Assembly (NCBI GenBank): GCA_913776965.1
Contig: CAJYQL010000001.1
Coordinates: 1-49,807, forward strand
Direction of reading: 5' to 3'
Length of the DNA: 49,807 nt
Origin: an uncultured Xylophilus sp.
GTDB taxonomy: Bacteria; Pseudomonadota; Gammaproteobacteria; Burkholderiales; Burkholderiaceae_C
Numbering within the stretch: the first letter of the stretch is position 1; each line of letters begins with the position of its first letter. Shown one piece after another: positions 24,499 to 48,938 of the stretch. Position numbers and translations under genes: made by a program. The notes under the pieces are model-generated. The model saw nothing but the letters and a program-made list of their open reading frames with translations. It was not told the origin of the DNA and ran no database searches.

Positions 24499-24528
24499 TC
24501 TTCGGAAAGCATGGACGGGGCCGGATGC

Positions 24529-24534
24529 TAAAAT
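24529..24534 (+). promoter_or_regulatory. Extended -10 element of the thrS leader promoter
   Basis: TGC-TAAAAT (24526-24534), an extended -10, lies 28 bp after the aceA stop. No good -35 is visible, as is common with extended -10 promoters. Transcription would begin near 24541, 37 nt before the leader peptide. Confidence 0.5.
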
Positions 24535-24577
24535 CCGCGCCCCATCCACCGGCAAGAGCGAGAAAGGCGAACCGGTT

Positions 24578-24619
24578 ATGACACCGCGAACTCCGTCGGA
24601 GACCCCGACCGGCCGTTAG
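24578..24619 (+). CDS. Threonine-rich leader peptide of the thrS attenuator
   Basis: ATG at 24578 to TAG at 24619 encodes [13 protein letters not shown], with Thr at 4 of 13 positions (codons at 24581, 24590, 24602 and 24608). AAAGG lies 10 nt upstream. The peptide sits in front of alternative RNA helices that end in an intrinsic terminator just before threonyl-tRNA synthetase. This is the arrangement of classical ribosome-mediated attenuators. Ribosome stalling at Thr codons would report low charged tRNA-Thr. Confidence 0.7.
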
Positions 24620-24690
24620 GCCGATATGTTCGCGCCTGCCCGGACCTTGGTTGCCGGATCACCAAAAGCGCGGACCTCCGCGCTTTTTTG
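24585..24690 (+). promoter_or_regulatory. Transcription attenuator of thrS (alternative helices 1:2, 2:3, 3:4)
   Basis: Segment 1, CGCGAAC (24585-24591), lies in the leader peptide. It pairs perfectly over 7 bp with segment 2, GTTCGCG (24628-24634). Segment 2 extended to GTTCGCGC (24628-24635) can instead pair over 8 bp, one of them G-U, with segment 3, GCGCGGAC (24668-24675). Segment 3 is also the 5' arm of the terminator. Stalling at the Thr codons would mask segment 1 and allow 2:3, preventing termination. Completed translation would favour 3:4. Pairings were read by eye; no energy was computed. Confidence 0.7.
24665..24690 (+). terminator. Intrinsic terminator 21 bp before thrS (attenuator helix 3:4)
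   Basis: Stem AAAGCGCGG/CCGCGCTTT (24665-24673 with 24678-24686), loop ACCT, T run at 24684-24689. It could also end the aceA transcript, but its overlap with segment 3 of the leader structure favours an attenuator. Confidence 0.85.
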
Positions 24691-24711
24691 TTGTCTGCTC
24701 GCTCACATCCC

Positions 24712-26619
24712 ATGATCCAGATCACCCTTCCCGACAATTCGCAGCGCCAGTATCCCGGTCCGGTCACGGTGGCCGAGGTGGCCCAGTCCATCGGGCCCGG
24801 CTTGGCCAAGATGACCGTCGCCGGCAAGATCGACGGGCGGCTGGTGGATGCCAGCGACGTGATCAACCACGACGCGCGGCTGCAGATCATCACGCCGCGC
24901 GACGAGGAGGGGGTGGAGATCATCCGCCACTCCTGCGCCCACTTGGTCGGACATGCGGTCAAGCAGCTCTACCCGACTGCCAAGATGGTGATCGGGCCGG
25001 TGATCGAGGAAGGCTTCTACTACGACATTTCCTATGAGCGCCCGTTCACGCCCGAAGACATGGAGGCGATCGAGCAGCGCATGCGGGAACTGATCGCGCA
25101 GGACTACGACGTCGTGAAGAAGATGACGCCGCGGGCGGAGGTCATCGAGGTGTTCCGCAGTCGGGGCGAAGACTACAAGCTGCGCCTGATCGAAGACATG
25201 CCGGACGAGACGGCCATGGGCCTGTACTACCACCAGGAATACGTCGACATGTGCCGCGGGCCGCACGTGCCGAACACACGTTTCCTCAAGGTGTTCAAGC
25301 TGACCCGTGTCTCCGGCGCGTACTGGCGTGGCGACGCGAAGAACGAGCAGCTGCAGCGGATCTACGGCACCGCGTGGGCCGACAAGAAGGACCTCGAGGC
25401 ATACATCCGGCGCATCGAAGAAGCCGAAAAGCGCGACCACCGGCGGCTCGGGCGCGAGCTGGACCTGTTCCACATCGACGATGTGGCGCCGGGCGTCGTG
25501 TTCTGGCATCCCAAGGGCTGGTCGGTCTGGCAGCAGGTCGAGCAATACATGCGGCAGGTCTACCGCGATACCGGCTACCAGGAAGTCAAAGGTCCGCAAA
25601 TCCTCGACAAAGGCCTGTGGGAGAAGACCGGCCACTGGCAGAACTACCGGGACAACATGTTCACGACCGAGTCGGAAAAGCGCGAGTACGCGCTCAAGCC
25701 GATGAACTGTCCGGGCCATGTGCTGATCTTCAAAAGCGACCTGCGCAGCTACCGCGACCTGCCGCTGCGCTACGGCGAGTTCGGGCAGTGCCACCGCAAC
25801 GAACCAAGCGGCGGCCTGCACGGGATCATGCGGGTGCGCGGTTTCACGCAGGACGATGGGCATGCGTTCGTGACCGAGGATCAGATCCTCGACGAGGTGG
25901 TGGCCTTCACCGCCAAGCTGCAGGCCGTCTACCAGGACTTCGGCTTCACCGACGTGCTTTACAAGCTGGCGACCCGGCCGGAGAACCGTGTGGGTTCGGA
26001 CGCGCTGTGGGACAAGGCGGAGCACGCCTGCATGGAGGCGCTGCGTCGGTCCGGTGTGGACTTCGTGATCGCACCGGGCGATGGTGCGTTCTACGGACCG
26101 AAGATCGAATACACCTTGCGCGACGCTATTGGACGGCACTGGCAGTGCGGCACCATCCAGGTGGACTTCAACACCGCCGAGCGTCTGGGCGCCGAGTACG
26201 TCACGGAAACCAGCGGCCGCGCGCACCCGGTCATGCTGCACCGGGCCATCGTCGGGAGCCTGGAGCGTTTCATCGGCATGCTGATCGAGCACCATGCCGG
26301 CGCCATGCCGGTCTGGCTGGCGCCGGTCCAGGTCTCGGTGCTCAACATCACCGACGGTCAGGCGGACTACGCCCGCGATGTTGTCAGAACGCTGCAGAAT
26401 CAAGGGCTTAGGGTGCAGTTGGATTTACGCAACGAAAAGATCACGTATAAAATACGGGAGCATTCGTTGCAGAAGCTGCCCTACATCCTCGTCGTGGGCG
26501 ACAAGGAAAAGGCGGCTGGTGCCGTAGCGGTGCGTGCCCGGGGCAACAAGGACCTCGGCGTAATGTCCCTCGACGACTTCGCCCAGAAGGTCGCCGCGGA
26601 TATTGCCCTCAAGAGTTGA
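24712..26619 (+). CDS. thrS: Threonyl-tRNA synthetase
   Basis: Charges tRNA-Thr; class II synthetase. The 635 residues have the standard layout: N-terminal TGS domain ([20 protein letters not shown]), editing domain with [16 protein letters not shown] and [13 protein letters not shown], catalytic core with [10 protein letters not shown] and [13 protein letters not shown], and a C-terminal anticodon-binding domain ([20 protein letters not shown]). The ATG at 24712 gives the family N-terminus, but no Shine-Dalgarno sequence is visible in the pyrimidine-rich bases before it. It heads thrS-infC-rpmI-rplT and is preceded by the Thr attenuator. Confidence 0.98.
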
Positions 26620-26701: not shown

Positions 26702-27292
26702 ATCGCTACTGAATTCCGTGACCGTCGCCACCGCGAGGAACGCAAGCACCGTTTGAACCGCGAGATCATGGCGCCCGAAGTCCGCCTGTCCGGACCCGAG
26801 AACGAGCCGCTCGGCATCGTGAGCCTGTCGGACGCCTTGCGCATGGCGGGCGAACTGGATGTCGACCTGGTCGAGATCGCCGCGACGGCCAATCCGCCGG
26901 TGTGCCGGCTGATGGACTACGGCAAGTTCAAGTACCAGGAACAGAAGCGGGCGGCCGAGGCGAAGGCCAAGCAGACGGTCATCGAGATCAAGGAAATCAA
27001 GTTCCGTCCCGGTACCGACGACGGCGACTACAACATCAAGATGCGCAACATCCGGCGTTTTCTTGAGGATGGCGACAAGTGCAAGATCACCCTGCGGTTC
27101 CGCGGACGGGAGATCACGCACCAGGAAATCGGTATCGCCCTGCTGAACCGCATCCGTGCGGATCTGGGCGACACGATCCAGGTTGAGCAGTTTCCGAAGC
27201 TCGAAGGGCGCCAGATGATCATGATGATCGCGCCGAGCCGCAAGAAGCCCGCGCCGGCACAGAAGCCGGCAGCGGAATCCAGCCCGGCCTGA
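26702..27292 (+). CDS. infC: Translation initiation factor IF-3 (ATC start)
   Basis: IF-3 binds the 30S subunit and checks start codon-anticodon pairing. The family N-terminus ([20 protein letters not shown]) extends upstream of every ATG, GTG and TTG. The residue preceding it is an ATC codon at 26702, with GAGGA 8 nt upstream. A non-canonical AUU/AUC start is the known basis of infC autoregulation, since IF-3 rejects such starts. This gives 196 residues. Core motifs are [19 protein letters not shown] and VKIRFRGRE-like [14 protein letters not shown]. The C-terminal tail is Lys/Pro/Ala-rich. Calling the start at the in-frame TTG (26753) would remove part of the N-domain. Confidence 0.95.
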
Positions 27293-27454
27293 AGCCGGGG
27301 GAACGAAAAGGATTCGTCCGGGGCAACCCGGGCGAGGGTGACGGAGCGATCCGGCACTGCGCGGCGTGTGAGCGCCGCATGAAAAGTGTCTCGGGGCCTG
27401 CAAGTACGTGAAAAGTTCGCGTCGCCTCACGAGCACAAACAAAGGAGCATTCAC
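27293..27454 (+). promoter_or_regulatory. infC-rpmI intercistronic leader
   Basis: 162 nt without an ORF. It includes the hairpin GCGGCG/CGCCGC (27361-27366 with 27373-27378) and other GC-rich inverted repeats. In other bacteria ribosomal protein L20 represses rpmI-rplT by binding a structured leader at this position. The same is plausible here, but no specific L20 site was recognised. Confidence 0.35.
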
Positions 27455-27658
27455 ATGCCCAAAATGAAGACCAAGAGCAGCGCGAAGAAGCGCTTCCGTG
27501 TTCGTCCCGGTGGCACCGTCAAGCGCGGTCAAGCCTTCAAGCGTCACATCCTGACCAAGAAGACCACCAAGAACAAGCGCCATCTGCGTGGTGCGGTTGC
27601 TGTGCACGAGACCAACATGGGCTCGATTTCACAGATGCTGCCCGGCATGGGCGTTTAA
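27455..27658 (+). CDS. rpmI: 50S ribosomal protein L35
   Basis: 67-residue basic ribosomal protein. It shows the L35 pattern [20 protein letters not shown], then [20 protein letters not shown] and HLRG. A strong AAAGGAG precedes the ATG at 27455. It lies between infC and rplT as in most bacteria. Confidence 0.98.
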
Positions 27659-27684
27659 TTTACTGACGAACAAGGAGTACTTAC

Positions 27685-28044
27685 ATGCCTCGCGTCAAAC
27701 GTGGTGTTACGGCCCGTGCCCGTCACAAGAAAGTCCTAGCCCTCGCCAAGGGGTTCCGCGGCCGCCGCGGTAACGTCTTCCGCATCGCCAAGCAGGCGGT
27801 GATGAAGGCCGGCCAGTACGCCTACCGCGACCGCCGGACCAAGAAGCGTGTGTTCCGCCAGCTGTGGATCGCCCGTATCAACGCCGCATCGCGTGAACTG
27901 GGCCTGACCTACAGCCAGTTCACCAACGGCCTGAAGAAGGCCGCCATCGAGATCGACCGCAAGATGCTGGCCGACCTCGCCGTGCATGACAAGGCGGGTT
28001 TCGCCAGCATCGTGGAACAGGTCAAGGCCAAGCTGGCTGCTTGA
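27685..28044 (+). CDS. rplT: 50S ribosomal protein L20
   Basis: 119-residue ribosomal protein needed for early 50S assembly; in other bacteria it represses its own operon. It starts [20 protein letters not shown] and contains [20 protein letters not shown] and [26 protein letters not shown] lies before the ATG. The stop overlaps a short downstream ORF by one base (TGATG), discussed with the pheS leader. Confidence 0.98.
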
Positions 28045-28138
28045 TGTTCGACGGCGGGTTGCTATCGTTTCGATAGCTGCCTGCGCAACTGAGACAAGGG
28101 CTAGGGCTGCAAAAGGCACTAGCCCTTTTCCATTTTCA
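28044..28138 (+). promoter_or_regulatory. Leader between rplT and pheS with possible Phe leader peptide and terminator
   Basis: An ATG at 28044, overlapping the rplT stop, opens [10 protein letters not shown], ending at 28076 and holding two Phe codons. A terminator-like stem AAGGGCTAG/CTAGCCCTT (28096-28104 with 28119-28127) followed by TT and later T-rich sequence lies before pheS. This resembles the pheM attenuator of enteric pheST, but only two Phe codons are present. No competing helix was found, and the segment doubles as a palindromic repeat. Confidence 0.35.
28059..28112 (+). repeat. Palindromic repeat upstream of pheS
   Basis: Perfect hairpin GCTATCG-TTT-CGATAGC (28061-28077), followed by TGCCTGCGCAACTGAGACAA and GGGCTAGGGC. 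The order of elements matches the degenerate copy in pcm. From memory, this unit resembles a frequent intergenic element of Comamonadaceae. Confidence 0.6.
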
Positions 28139-28150
28139 CGAAAAGATCCC

Positions 28151-29203
28151 ATGAACGAGTTGGAAGCCCTGGTCGCCGACGCCCATGCCGGTTTCGCCGC
28201 CGCCGCCACGCCTGCCGATCTGGAGAACGCCAAGGCGCTGTACCTCGGCAAGTCCGGCCGCATCACGGAACTGATGAAGGGCATGGCGAGCCTACCGGTG
28301 GAGGAGAAGAAGGCGCGCGGCGCGGTCATCAACACCGCGAAGCAGGCGATCGAGGCGGCCCTGACGGCGCGGCGCCAGGCGCTGGCCGATGCCGAGCTCG
28401 ACCGCCAGCTCGAGGCCGAAGCGCTCGACGTGTCGCTGCCCGGCCGCAGCACGGGCGCCGGCGGGCTGCACCCGGTGTCGCTGACGCTGGAGCGGATCGA
28501 GGGCATCTTCGGCTCGATGGGTTTCGCCGTGGCCGACGGCCCGGAGATCGAAACCGACTGGTTCAATTTCACCGCGCTCAACACGCCAGAAGACCATCCG
28601 GCGCGGTCGATGCACGACACCTTCTACGTCGAAGGCGGCACCGAGGCCGCGCCGCTGCTGCTGCGCACCCACACCAGCCCGATGCAGATCCGCCATGCGG
28701 TGCAGCACGTGAAGCGCTACCGGCACCTGCTCGATGCGGGCCAGCCGATGCCGGAGATCCGGGTGATCGCGCCGGGCAGGACCTACCGCGTGGACAGCGA
28801 CGCGACCCACTCGCCGATGTTCCACCAGTGCGAAGGCCTGTGGATCGGCGAGAACGTCAGCTTCAAGGACCTGAAGGTGGTCTTCACCGCGTTCTGCCGC
28901 ACCTTTTTCGAGAGCGACGATCTGGTGCTGCGGTTCCGCCCGAGCTTTTTCCCGTTCACCGAGCCGAGCGCCGAAGTGGACATCCAGTTCCAGAGCGGTC
29001 CGAACGCCGGCCGCTGGCTGGAAGTGGCCGGATCCGGCCAGGTGCACCCGAACGTGGTGCGCAACATGGGGCTCGACCCCGAGCGCTACATCGGCTTCGC
29101 GTTCGGCATGGGTCCGGACCGCCTGACGATGCTGCGCTACGGCGTGAACGACCTGCGTCTGTTCTTCGACGGCGACCTGCGTTTCCTGCGGCAGTTCCAG
29201 TAA
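28151..29203 (+). CDS. pheS: Phenylalanyl-tRNA synthetase alpha subunit
   Basis: Catalytic subunit of the (alpha-beta)2 PheRS. The 350 residues have an N-terminal coiled-coil arm ([18 protein letters not shown]...) and the class II core: [19 protein letters not shown], motif 2 [20 protein letters not shown], and motif 3 [20 protein letters not shown]. Phe-pocket residues [14 protein letters not shown] are present. The ATG at 28151 begins the family N-terminus. pheT follows after 36 bp. Confidence 0.98.
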
Positions 29204-29239
29204 TCGACGCATCCCGGACCCGAGCGAAAGAATCCTTCC

Positions 29240-31681
29240 ATGCAATTTCCCGAATCCTGGCTGCGCGAATTCTGCAATCCGCCGATCGGCACGCAGGCGC
29301 TGGCCGACACCCTGACCATGGCCGGCCTGGAGGTCGAAGACCTGCAGCCGGTTGCGCCTCCGTTTCACGGCATCATGGTGGGCCGCATCATCGACACGGT
29401 GCAGCATCCCAACGCGGACCGGCTCCGCGTCTGCCAGGTGGACGTGGGCCAGTCAGCTCCGCTGTCCATCGTCTGCGGTGCGCCGAACGCCCGCCCGGGC
29501 ATCAAGGTGCCCTGCGCGACCGTCGGTGCCGAGCTGCCGCCGGCCGAGGAGGGCGGCGCACCGTTCCGCATCAAGATCGGCAAGCTGCGCGGCGTCGAGA
29601 GTTTCGGCATGCTCTGCTCGGCCCGCGAGCTCAAGCTGAGCGAGGCGCACGAGGGGCTGCTCGAACTGGCCGACGATGCGCCGGTCGGCGCCGACATCCG
29701 CGAATGGCTGCGGCTCGACGACACGCTGTTCACCCTCAAGCTCACGCCGAACCTAGCGCACTGCCTGAGCATCTACGGCGTGGCGCGCGAAGTCGCGGCA
29801 CTCTCCGGTGCGCCGCTGCGCCCGCTGGACGTGCCGGCCGTGCCGGTCGAGGCAACGCAGCGGGTACCGGTGCAGGTCAGTGCGCCCGACCTGTGCGGTC
29901 GCTTTTCCGGCCGTGTGGTGAAGGGGGTGAATCCGCGCGCCACGACGCCCGCCTGGATGGTCGAGCGGCTCGAGCGCTGCGGACAGCGCAGCGTCTCGCC
30001 GCTGGTGGATATCTCGAACTACGTGATGTTCGAATGCGGGCAGCCGTCGCACATCTTCGATCTCGGCAAGATCCGCGGCGCGCTCGACGTGCGCTGGGCC
30101 CGTGCGGGCGAGTCGCTGAAGCTGCTGAACGGCACGACGGTCGCGCTCGACGACAAGGTGGGCGTGATCGCGGACGAGGCACAGGTCGAGTCGCTCGCCG
30201 GCATCATGGGCGGCGATGCCACGGCGGTATCGGACGACACGGCGGACATCTACATCGAAGCCGCCTTCTGGTATCCGCGGGCAGTAGCCGGCCGTTCGCG
30301 GCGCTTCAACTTCTCCACCGATGCCGGGCACCGTTTCGAGCGCGGCGTCGATCCGGCGCGGACCGTCGAGACGATCGAGCGCATCACGGCCCTGGTGCAG
30401 CAGATCTGCGGCGGCACCGCCGGTCCGGTGAACGACCTGCAGCCCTGCATGCCGGCCGCGCAACCGGTCACCCTGCGGGCGGCCCGCGCGTCCAAGGTCA
30501 TCGGCATGCCGCTGACGGTGGAGCGGTGCGCCGAGGTGCTGGCATCGCTGGGCCTTCCGGTGACGGTGGCCGGCGACACCGTGACGGTGCAGCCCCCGTC
30601 CTGGCGCTTCGACCTGACGATCGAGGAAGACCTGATCGAGGAGATCGCCCGGATGGTCGGCTACGAACAGCTGCCGACCACGCCGCCGCTGGCCCCGATC
30701 ACGCCGCGTTTGCGGGCGGAGGACCGACGCGGACCGTTCGACGCGCGGCGCGCCCTGGCGGCACGCGGCTACCAAGAAACCATCAACTTCAGCTTCGTCG
30801 AGGAACGCTGGGAACGCGAACTGGCGGGCAATGCCGACCCGATCCGGCTGCTGAACCCGATCGCCAGCCAGATGAGCGTGATGCGGTCGTCGTTGCTCGG
30901 CTCGCTGCTGCAGGTGCTGCGCTTCAACCTCGACCGGCGGCAGTCGCGCGTCCGGGTGTTCGAGCTGGGCCGCGTGTTCCTGCGTGATGCGGCCGCCGCG
31001 CACAGCGACACCACCGTGGCCGGATTCGACCAGCCGATGCGCATCGCCGGTGCAGCGGTCGGCGCGGCATCACCCCTGCAGTGGGGGAGGGCCGATGCGC
31101 CGGTCGATTTCTTCGACGTGAAGGGCGATGTCGAGGCGCTGCTGGCGCCGCGTGCCGCCACCTTCGTCGCCGCGACCCATCCGGCGCTGCACCCCGGCCG
31201 CTGTGCGCAGGTGCTGGTGGACGACCGCGTTATCGGCTTCGTTGGCGAGCTGCACCCCCGCTGGCGGCAGGCCTGGGGCTTCGCCCAGCAGGCGCCGGTG
31301 CTGTTCGAGCTGGACCTCGACGCCGTGCTGGCCCGCCCGGTGCCGAAACCCACGGCGGTGGATCGTCAGCAGGATGTCGAGCGCGATCTGGCGGTGGTAG
31401 TGGCCGAAGCGGTGACCCACGCGCAGGTGCAGGACGCGATCCGCGCCGCGGTGCCGGCCGGCCTGCTACGCGAAGCGGTTCTGTTCGACATCTACCGGCC
31501 CAAGCCGGGCAAGGACGGCGCGCTGCCGGCGGGCGGCTGGGCACCGGGCGAAAAGAGCCTTGCCCTGCGGCTGACGCTCAACGGCGGCGATGCGGCCCTG
31601 ACGGACGAGCAGATCGACGGCGCGGTGCAGGCCGTTCTGGCGCAACTGTCCGAACGCCTGGGCGCACGCCTGCGGGCCTGA
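29240..31681 (+). CDS. pheT: Phenylalanyl-tRNA synthetase beta subunit
   Basis: 813 residues, normal length. It starts MQFPESWLREFCNPPIGTQA. An N-terminal tRNA-binding OB domain (VGRIIDTVQHPNADRLRVCQ) is followed by the B3/4 editing domain, the B5 domain and a catalytic-like core (LIEEIARMVGYEQLPTTPP). The C-terminal anticodon-binding FDX-ACB domain shows QQDVERDLAVVVAEAVTHAQ, FDIYRPK and KSLALRLTL. It forms an operon with pheS and ihfA, the latter starting 15 bp after its stop. Confidence 0.98.
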   Translation: MQFPESWLREFCNPPIGTQALADTLTMAGLEVEDLQPVAPPFHGIMVGRIIDTVQHPNADRLRVCQVDVGQSAPLSIVCGAPNARPGIKVPCATVGAELPPAEEGGAPFRIKIGKLRGVESFGMLCSARELKLSEAHEGLLELADDAPVGADIREWLRLDDTLFTLKLTPNLAHCLSIYGVAREVAALSGAPLRPLDVPAVPVEATQRVPVQVSAPDLCGRFSGRVVKGVNPRATTPAWMVERLERCGQRSVSPLVDISNYVMFECGQPSHIFDLGKIRGALDVRWARAGESLKLLNGTTVALDDKVGVIADEAQVESLAGIMGGDATAVSDDTADIYIEAAFWYPRAVAGRSRRFNFSTDAGHRFERGVDPARTVETIERITALVQQICGGTAGPVNDLQPCMPAAQPVTLRAARASKVIGMPLTVERCAEVLASLGLPVTVAGDTVTVQPPSWRFDLTIEEDLIEEIARMVGYEQLPTTPPLAPITPRLRAEDRRGPFDARRALAARGYQETINFSFVEERWERELAGNADPIRLLNPIASQMSVMRSSLLGSLLQVLRFNLDRRQSRVRVFELGRVFLRDAAAAHSDTTVAGFDQPMRIAGAAVGAASPLQWGRADAPVDFFDVKGDVEALLAPRAATFVAATHPALHPGRCAQVLVDDRVIGFVGELHPRWRQAWGFAQQAPVLFELDLDAVLARPVPKPTAVDRQQDVERDLAVVVAEAVTHAQVQDAIRAAVPAGLLREAVLFDIYRPKPGKDGALPAGGWAPGEKSLALRLTLNGGDAALTDEQIDGAVQAVLAQLSERLGARLRA

Positions 31682-47484: not shown

Positions 47485-48762
<1,278 letters not shown>

Positions 48763-48938
48763 GGGACTCCTCGTTGTCGGTTCCGCCGCGCACGAGCACG
48801 ACGAGGTGGACGGGTGGGCGCGGCCCAGGCGTACGGCCGCGCACCGTGTCAGGTGTCGCTCCCCGATGGTGACCCATCCAACGCCAGTCGCGACCTCCCG
48901 ATCGTACCGAGCGCTCCCGTTCGTGTCACCCTGGTGGC
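48763..48938. promoter_or_regulatory. Divergent intergenic region of actinobacterial type
   Basis: 176 bp between the glyA start and clpS. No clear promoter hexamers were recognised. It belongs to the actinobacterial part of the contig and should not be read as the native glyA promoter of the betaproteobacterium. Confidence 0.5.

Follow-up and report, generated by a model that had tools for sequence, protein, structure and literature searches.

Proteobacterial amino-acid operons (trp, his, thr and pheA) and the pheST genes of Escherichia coli, which are preceded by pheM, are controlled by leader-peptide attenuators, and the leader of the E. coli leu operon contains rare Leu codons. The thrS gene of E. 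coli is a textbook case of translational self-control, in which threonyl-tRNA synthetase (ThrRS) binds a tRNA-like operator in the mRNA and blocks ribosome loading. A leader peptide with Thr codons, thrL, has been predicted before thrS of Streptomyces lividans (PMC8079986), so a leader in front of thrS is in itself no novelty. No description of a thrS leader in Betaproteobacteria, including one with the fixed rare-codon start considered below, was found in Rfam or in the searched literature, which covered few subscription papers.

In the window, i.e., the whole 49,807-nucleotide stretch of DNA that was analyzed, 213 bases separate the isocitrate lyase gene from thrS (gene names via Pfam). This region very probably contains a ribosome-mediated (leader-peptide) transcription attenuator that controls thrS (Table 1). 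The elements named in the original prediction, namely an extended −10, a ribosome site and a 13-codon ORF with four Thr codons (ATG ACA CCG CGA ACT CCG TCG GAG ACC CCG ACC GGC CGT TAG), were all located in the sequence. Both predicted pairings were reproduced at the same positions: region 1 (CGCGAAC) can form a perfect 7-bp helix (1:2) with GTTCGCG at 24628–24634, and regions 2 and 3 can pair over their full length with one G-U among 8 bp (2:3). The predicted terminator is also present. Its T-rich tail ends about 21 bases upstream of thrS, and its stem (AAAAGCGCGG-ACCT-CCGCGCTTTT, 10 bp, 24664–24687) proved to be one base pair longer than the 24665–24686 given at first.

Table 1. Features of the thrS leader region and of the genes 3' of it (positions in the window).
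Feature	Position	Strand	Basis
Extended −10 promoter element TGCTAAAAT	24526–24534	+	Sequence; −10-like motif in relatives
Conserved block AAGAGCGAGAAAGGCNNNNNGGTTATGACACCGCGAACTNN (spans the ribosome site, the ATG and codons 1–5)	24554–24594	+	Column conservation in 124 leaders; sequence model
AAAGG, putative ribosome-binding site of the leader ORF	24563–24567	+	Conserved in relatives
Leader ORF, 13 codons, 4 Thr, stop TAG	24578–24619	+	Sequence; in-frame Thr enrichment
Region 1 (CGCGAAC), within codons 3–5	24585–24591	+	Nearly invariant; complementary to region 2
Small hairpin CGGCC-GTTA-GGCCG containing the leader stop codon	24610–24623	+	Sequence
Region 2 (GTTCGCGC), candidate partner of region 1 or region 3	24628–24635	+	Sequence, shuffles; lineage-specific
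Region 3 (GCGCGGAC), terminator 5' arm and loop	24668–24675	+	Sequence; loop bases correlate with flanks of the region 2 core
Putative intrinsic terminator (3:4) with T-rich tail	24664–24691	+	Scan; shuffles; relatives
thrS, threonyl-tRNA synthetase, start ATG 24712	24712–26619	+	Pfam tRNA-synt_2b, HGTP_anticodon, tRNA_SAD, TGS
infC, rpmI, rplT, pheS, pheT, in that order 3' of thrS	26753–31681	+	Pfam

A −35/−10 pair was not found by a simple promoter scan, so the promoter call rests on the extended −10 element and on relatives, in which the motif TANA[AC]T occurs 30–72 nt 5' of the leader ATG in 87 of 140 leaders (39 in the reversed sequence and 0 in the reverse complement). An inverted repeat (GGGGCCGGAT/ATCCGCGCCCC, 24517–24543) encloses the −10 box in its loop. 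Upstream of thrS at two other loci, such repeats have both arms changed (GGGGCGCCGA/TCGGCGCCCC in L005 and GGGGTGCCGA/TCGGTGCCCC in L007), and the structure may be an operator or belong to the end of the preceding gene. A possible 4-bp hairpin (CGGT/ACCG, 24574–24586), noted by eye and too short to judge, would place the leader start codon in its loop; in families carrying GCGTTATGACACCGC, a shifted version is possible, also by eye. As for the small hairpin at the stop codon, similar ones with other bases were seen in close relatives, but the signal was insignificant across 104 leaders (mean z −0.28 vs. −0.18 for the control) and a conserved hairpin at this site was dropped from consideration.

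The genes infC, rpmI, rplT, pheS and pheT probably form one operon with thrS, and the attenuator perhaps controls these genes as well; if co-transcribed, infC, rpmI, rplT and pheST would also be influenced by the thrS leader. Elsewhere in the window, a ZMP/ZTP riboswitch was detected on the minus strand (48816–48901; Rfam RF01750, above threshold with 56.4 bits) immediately before a gene that looks like glyA (47485–48762, minus strand), followed by an apparent nrdR (names assigned by eye from translations).

To evaluate the spread of the leader, thrS upstream regions were sampled from the window's family, from 80 named loci, several of them gammaproteobacterial, and from one genome of each of 50 other families of the order. 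Of 93 genomes from the window's family, 76 carry the start block GGTTATGACACCGCGAAC (three mismatches or fewer) before thrS, as do 37 of the 80 named loci, including those of Variovorax, Acidovorax, Massilia, Cupriavidus, Paraburkholderia and Burkholderia. From 38 sequences of the block a sequence model of 50 positions was built, and it matched 57 of 399 genomes of the order, with exactly one match in each. It was found that 56 of the 57 matches are located upstream of thrS (55 of 56 fetched, plus G303, established separately), and the single stray match belongs to G375 (E 0.007). The 56 thrS-associated genomes span nine families and include every one of the 12 members of the window's family in the 399-genome sample. 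In a class-level sample searched with strict filters (E ≤ 0.001), 3 of 274 genomes matched, all from the window's family. The window's own genome contains one match to the conserved block (up to 3 mismatches), and an 18-mer of the block had no exact match in viral contigs; no other use of the start block was found in the own genome, the viral contigs or the 274 class genomes. More distant thrS leaders keep the Arg-Thr pair CGA-ACN (MQRTSTKTITYLG, MPRTSTFGRFHHRRG, MTLRTCTKH and MSFRTRMTTDA, by eye), and in many other families of the order no such leader was visible upstream of thrS.

Four of five Xanthomonadaceae loci (L063, L064, L066 and L068, from Lysobacter, Pseudoxanthomonas and Xanthomonas) have a Thr leader of another kind before thrS (MSTTTAHR, MSTTIAPR or MSTINV, with a conserved CGAGCGTGCGACATGAGCACTA start; translated by eye). 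No Thr leader was seen within 250 bases in the fifth, L065. This is perhaps an independent thrS leader. In other betaproteobacterial families, a tRNA-Val(GAC) gene is located just upstream of the thrS leader in L055, L111, L125, L205, L211, L216 and L220; an ARAGORN scan was positive in these 7 of 10 loci and found none in L001, L005 and L051.

The short ORF and its Thr codons are both strongly conserved in front of thrS. In 124 leaders, the part after codon 5 comprises 1117 residues, of which 249 (22.3%) are Thr in frame 0, compared with 19 (1.7%) in frame +1 and 42 (3.8%) in frame +2, and this part played no role in finding the leaders. The AAAGG columns also lie outside the stretch used to select leaders, and positions −15, −14 and −12 are A, A and G in 116, 117 and 117 of the 124. 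Thus, the leader ORF is real as a coding pattern and its translation is predicted. In 28 leaders from other families, the share of Thr after codon 5 drops to 8.4% (4.0% and 2.2% in the other frames), so Thr2 and Thr5 are the only constant Thr residues there. A terminator between the ORF and thrS was present in 119 of 125 distinct leaders of the first search (identical sequences merged, from 133 loci), and in 117 the stem was below −9 kcal/mol. The conserved ORF, the in-frame Thr, the position before thrS and these 117 terminators support the original idea of a Thr-codon leader attenuator for this gene.

A point against the attenuator is that at least ten members of the wider family do not have the leader ORF (L075, L080, L083, L151, L164, L171, L173, L177, L181 and L193), and in these loci the promoter directly adjoins a retained terminator-like hairpin before thrS. 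Some of them are small-genome relatives, and the hairpin kept there may therefore have a value of its own. This is the observation on which one could base a simpler explanation, namely a constitutive early terminator or 5' hairpin accompanied by a small upstream ORF and free of threonine regulation. Such an arrangement is improbable, as it would leave the in-frame Thr bias, the invariant start block and the association with thrS unexplained.

The beginning of the leader ORF is fixed at the nucleotide level, with ACA CCG CGA/CTG ACT/ACG as codons 2–5. Among 156 leaders, codon 2 is ACA in 152 and codon 3 is CCG in every one, while codon 4 is CGA in 145, CTG in 8 and CGG in 3, and codon 5 is ACT in 128 and ACG in 28. 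Some of this conservation is built in, since the leaders were found by similarity to the same block; the search tolerated three mismatches, and 102 of the 113 family and named matches needed none. Three of these codons are rare elsewhere: ACA and ACT make up 1 and 2 of the 145 Thr codons in the neighbor genes of the window, and CGA makes up 1 of 219 Arg codons. In the thrS genes of 33 relatives the values are 3.5% for ACA, 4.9% for ACT and 3.5% for CGA, and the leaders of the same relatives contain ACA in 31, CGA in 32 and ACT in 23 of 33 cases (33 of the 37 named leader loci were used; the four omitted have a thrS match that does not start at base 1501).

These data suggest that the sensor is the invariant rare-codon start block ACA CCG CGA ACT, beyond the mere presence of four Thr codons. 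A bolder reading, which we offer only tentatively, is that the start ACA CCG CGA/CTG ACT/ACG is itself the sensor and works as a near-initiation rare-codon trap, where a ribosome short of particular Thr-tRNA isoacceptors would stop at codon 2 or 5 over the RNA guarding the terminator. If this is true, the stall site and the switch strand are one sequence, preserved across much of Betaproteobacteria, whereas region 2 and the remainder of the peptide diverge. The stall may in addition be reinforced by the nascent peptide, which is fixed as MTP(R/L)T.

Fixation of the block at the nucleotide and not only the peptide level would also suit a variant of the E. coli operator, in which ThrRS binds the block as a mimic of tRNA-Thr and the ORF is incidental. 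ThrRS of E. coli does bind its own mRNA, and YGGTTATGACACCG can fold into a 4-bp hairpin (by eye). However, the loci L003 and L129 are without this hairpin and yet retain a Thr-bearing ORF. In addition, Thr enrichment is confined to the reading frame and extends beyond the block, the AAAGG site and the stop codon are kept, and a transcription terminator is located between the block and thrS, all of which makes binding of ThrRS to the block quite improbable as the explanation of the leader. A T-box or another known riboswitch reading tRNA-Thr directly deserves hardly any credence: thrS is a usual T-box target in other phyla, but a translated Thr ORF is not a T-box component and no Rfam family reached the threshold in the leader, for which a search at E ≤ 10 returned four weak sRNA matches only and neither a T-box nor Thr_leader.

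The leader-peptide attenuator further implies competing helices, and these were analyzed in the window by shuffling the stretch that carries region 2 (3000 shuffles, dinucleotides kept). A 7-bp 1:2 helix arose in 244 shuffles and an 8-bp 2:3 helix in 258, so that each helix alone, produced by about 8% of shuffles, is unremarkable; both on overlapping bases arose in 10 of 3000. An equally strong terminator was obtained in 0 of 300 shuffles of the intergenic sequence, and the window leader gives a more stable fold than 200 shuffled versions of it (z −3.03), none of which reached its stability.

In relatives, helix and folding tests were restricted to leaders whose terminator was below −9 kcal/mol; these numbered 117 and later 157, and were thinned by similarity to 120 or 128. 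Region 1 is nearly invariant, and covariation in 1:2 therefore cannot be seen; this pairing was positive in two tests, in one of which the duplex z was −1.00 vs. −0.05 for the control, but as a contiguous helix it gave a weak signal (z 1.6 vs. 0.7 and 0.8 for the controls). The original prediction expected the helices to be conserved in relatives, and this was supported less well than conservation of the ORF and of its Thr codons. The GTTCGCG of the window is present between the stop codon and the terminator in 31 of 167 leaders, i.e., region 2 is lineage-specific. A contiguous 2:3 helix of at least 6 bp is possible in 108 of the 120 thinned leaders and one of at least 7 bp in 74, and the helix sequences differ by lineage (GTTCGCGC:GCGCGGAC, GTAGTCGCGC:GCGCGGCTAC, GCTAGTCG:CGGCTAGT and TCGAGG:CCTCGA). 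In an alignment of a clade of 17 leaders, chosen for GTTCGCG and an ORF of 12–14 codons, no pair was changed on both sides, which weighs neither for nor against the helices.

General 2:3 tests gave values close to those of reversed-sequence controls (z −1.34 vs. −1.00; residual −1.25 vs. −0.86 and −0.95; z 6.2 vs. 5.6), because the GCGCGG arm is nearly palindromic. These broad complementarity statistics beat shuffles and partner swaps, but were almost as strong with region 3 or region 2 reversed, and they were set aside. Weight was put instead on a focused test that excludes the GCGCGG core, and this test was positive for 2:3. In 67 distinct leaders, the mean pairing run from the core into the loop was 1.24, compared with 0.71 when partners were swapped, and 0 of 10,000 permutations did as well, a figure that is not a true probability since related leaders are not independent. 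By pair beyond the core, the counts were 0, 1812 and 3511 of 10,000 for the first, second and third, respectively, and the first alone was individually significant.

Folding of the leader, also proposed originally, gave a divided answer. In equilibrium folding with the upstream RNA of the window leader free to pair, the probability of 2:3 never exceeded 0.04 for a ribosome stalled at a Thr codon and was 0.19 for one at the stop codon, so 2:3 did not appear in this model, and in the full transcript the terminator won in all states. In a second model, only the RNA downstream of the ribosome (between ribosome and polymerase) folds, which is a usual simplification. Here the mean pairing of the terminator arm with upstream RNA in 128 leaders was 0.80 for a stall at codon 2 and 0.78 at codon 5, compared with 0.50 for the whole leader free of ribosomes, 0.73 when the ORF is free, 0.58 for a ribosome at the stop codon and 0.67 for shuffled spacers. 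The window values were 1.00 for a stall at codon 2 or 5, 0.67 ribosome-free, 0.79 with the ORF free and 0.83 at the stop codon. The stall exceeded the ORF-free state in 86 of 128 leaders; the spread between states is modest, and an arm paired upstream is not necessarily paired as 2:3. The direction predicted by downstream-only folding fits an attenuator, with a size that is modest and model-dependent.

Taken as an attenuator, the leader would work in the manner of those of trp, his and pheM, as follows. RNA polymerase would start at the extended −10 element and a ribosome would begin the 13-codon ORF. With ample Thr-tRNA, the ribosome would read through the ORF, and region 2 would be sequestered, either by region 1 or under the terminating ribosome; region 3 would then pair with region 4 and transcription would stop before thrS. 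When charged Thr-tRNA is short, the ribosome would stall at an early Thr codon (2 or 5, and the later ones too in this species) and cover region 1, which would allow 2:3 to pair and transcription to continue into thrS. The stalling, the switch, the sensitivity to threonine and a sharper response due to the rare codons ACA, CGA and ACT are what we infer.

The predicted S. lividans thrL (MKRVRPFLETTPGFVPAR) differs from the window leader in a leaderless start, two Thr and, according to its description, the absence of a clear terminator, and bears no resemblance to MTPRT (PMC8079986). If the attenuator is real, many Betaproteobacteria use a ribosome-read leader, and the mechanism that controls one essential gene has changed within Proteobacteria. 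The fixed rare-codon start would allow a direct test of leader-codon choice for isoacceptor sensitivity, and the start block provides a sequence signature for annotating thrS leaders that gene finders have missed.

A comparison with the operator of E. coli thrS indicates that the same gene is under feedback there, but by a system with no leader ORF. The trp, his, thr, pheA and pheM attenuators share with the window leader a short ORF with cognate codons and an intrinsic terminator before the cognate gene, and their competing helices have candidate counterparts in it, and pheM likewise controls a synthetase. Unlike them, the window leader controls thrS, has two Thr in the first five codons and a start block fixed at the nucleotide level, and its region 1 lies inside those same Thr codons. 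The use of rare synonymous codons as a putative sensor is shared with the E. coli leu leader; in contrast to that leader, the amino acid and the gene are different, and the fixed codons here include a rare Arg codon, CGA (or CTG), located between the Thr codons.
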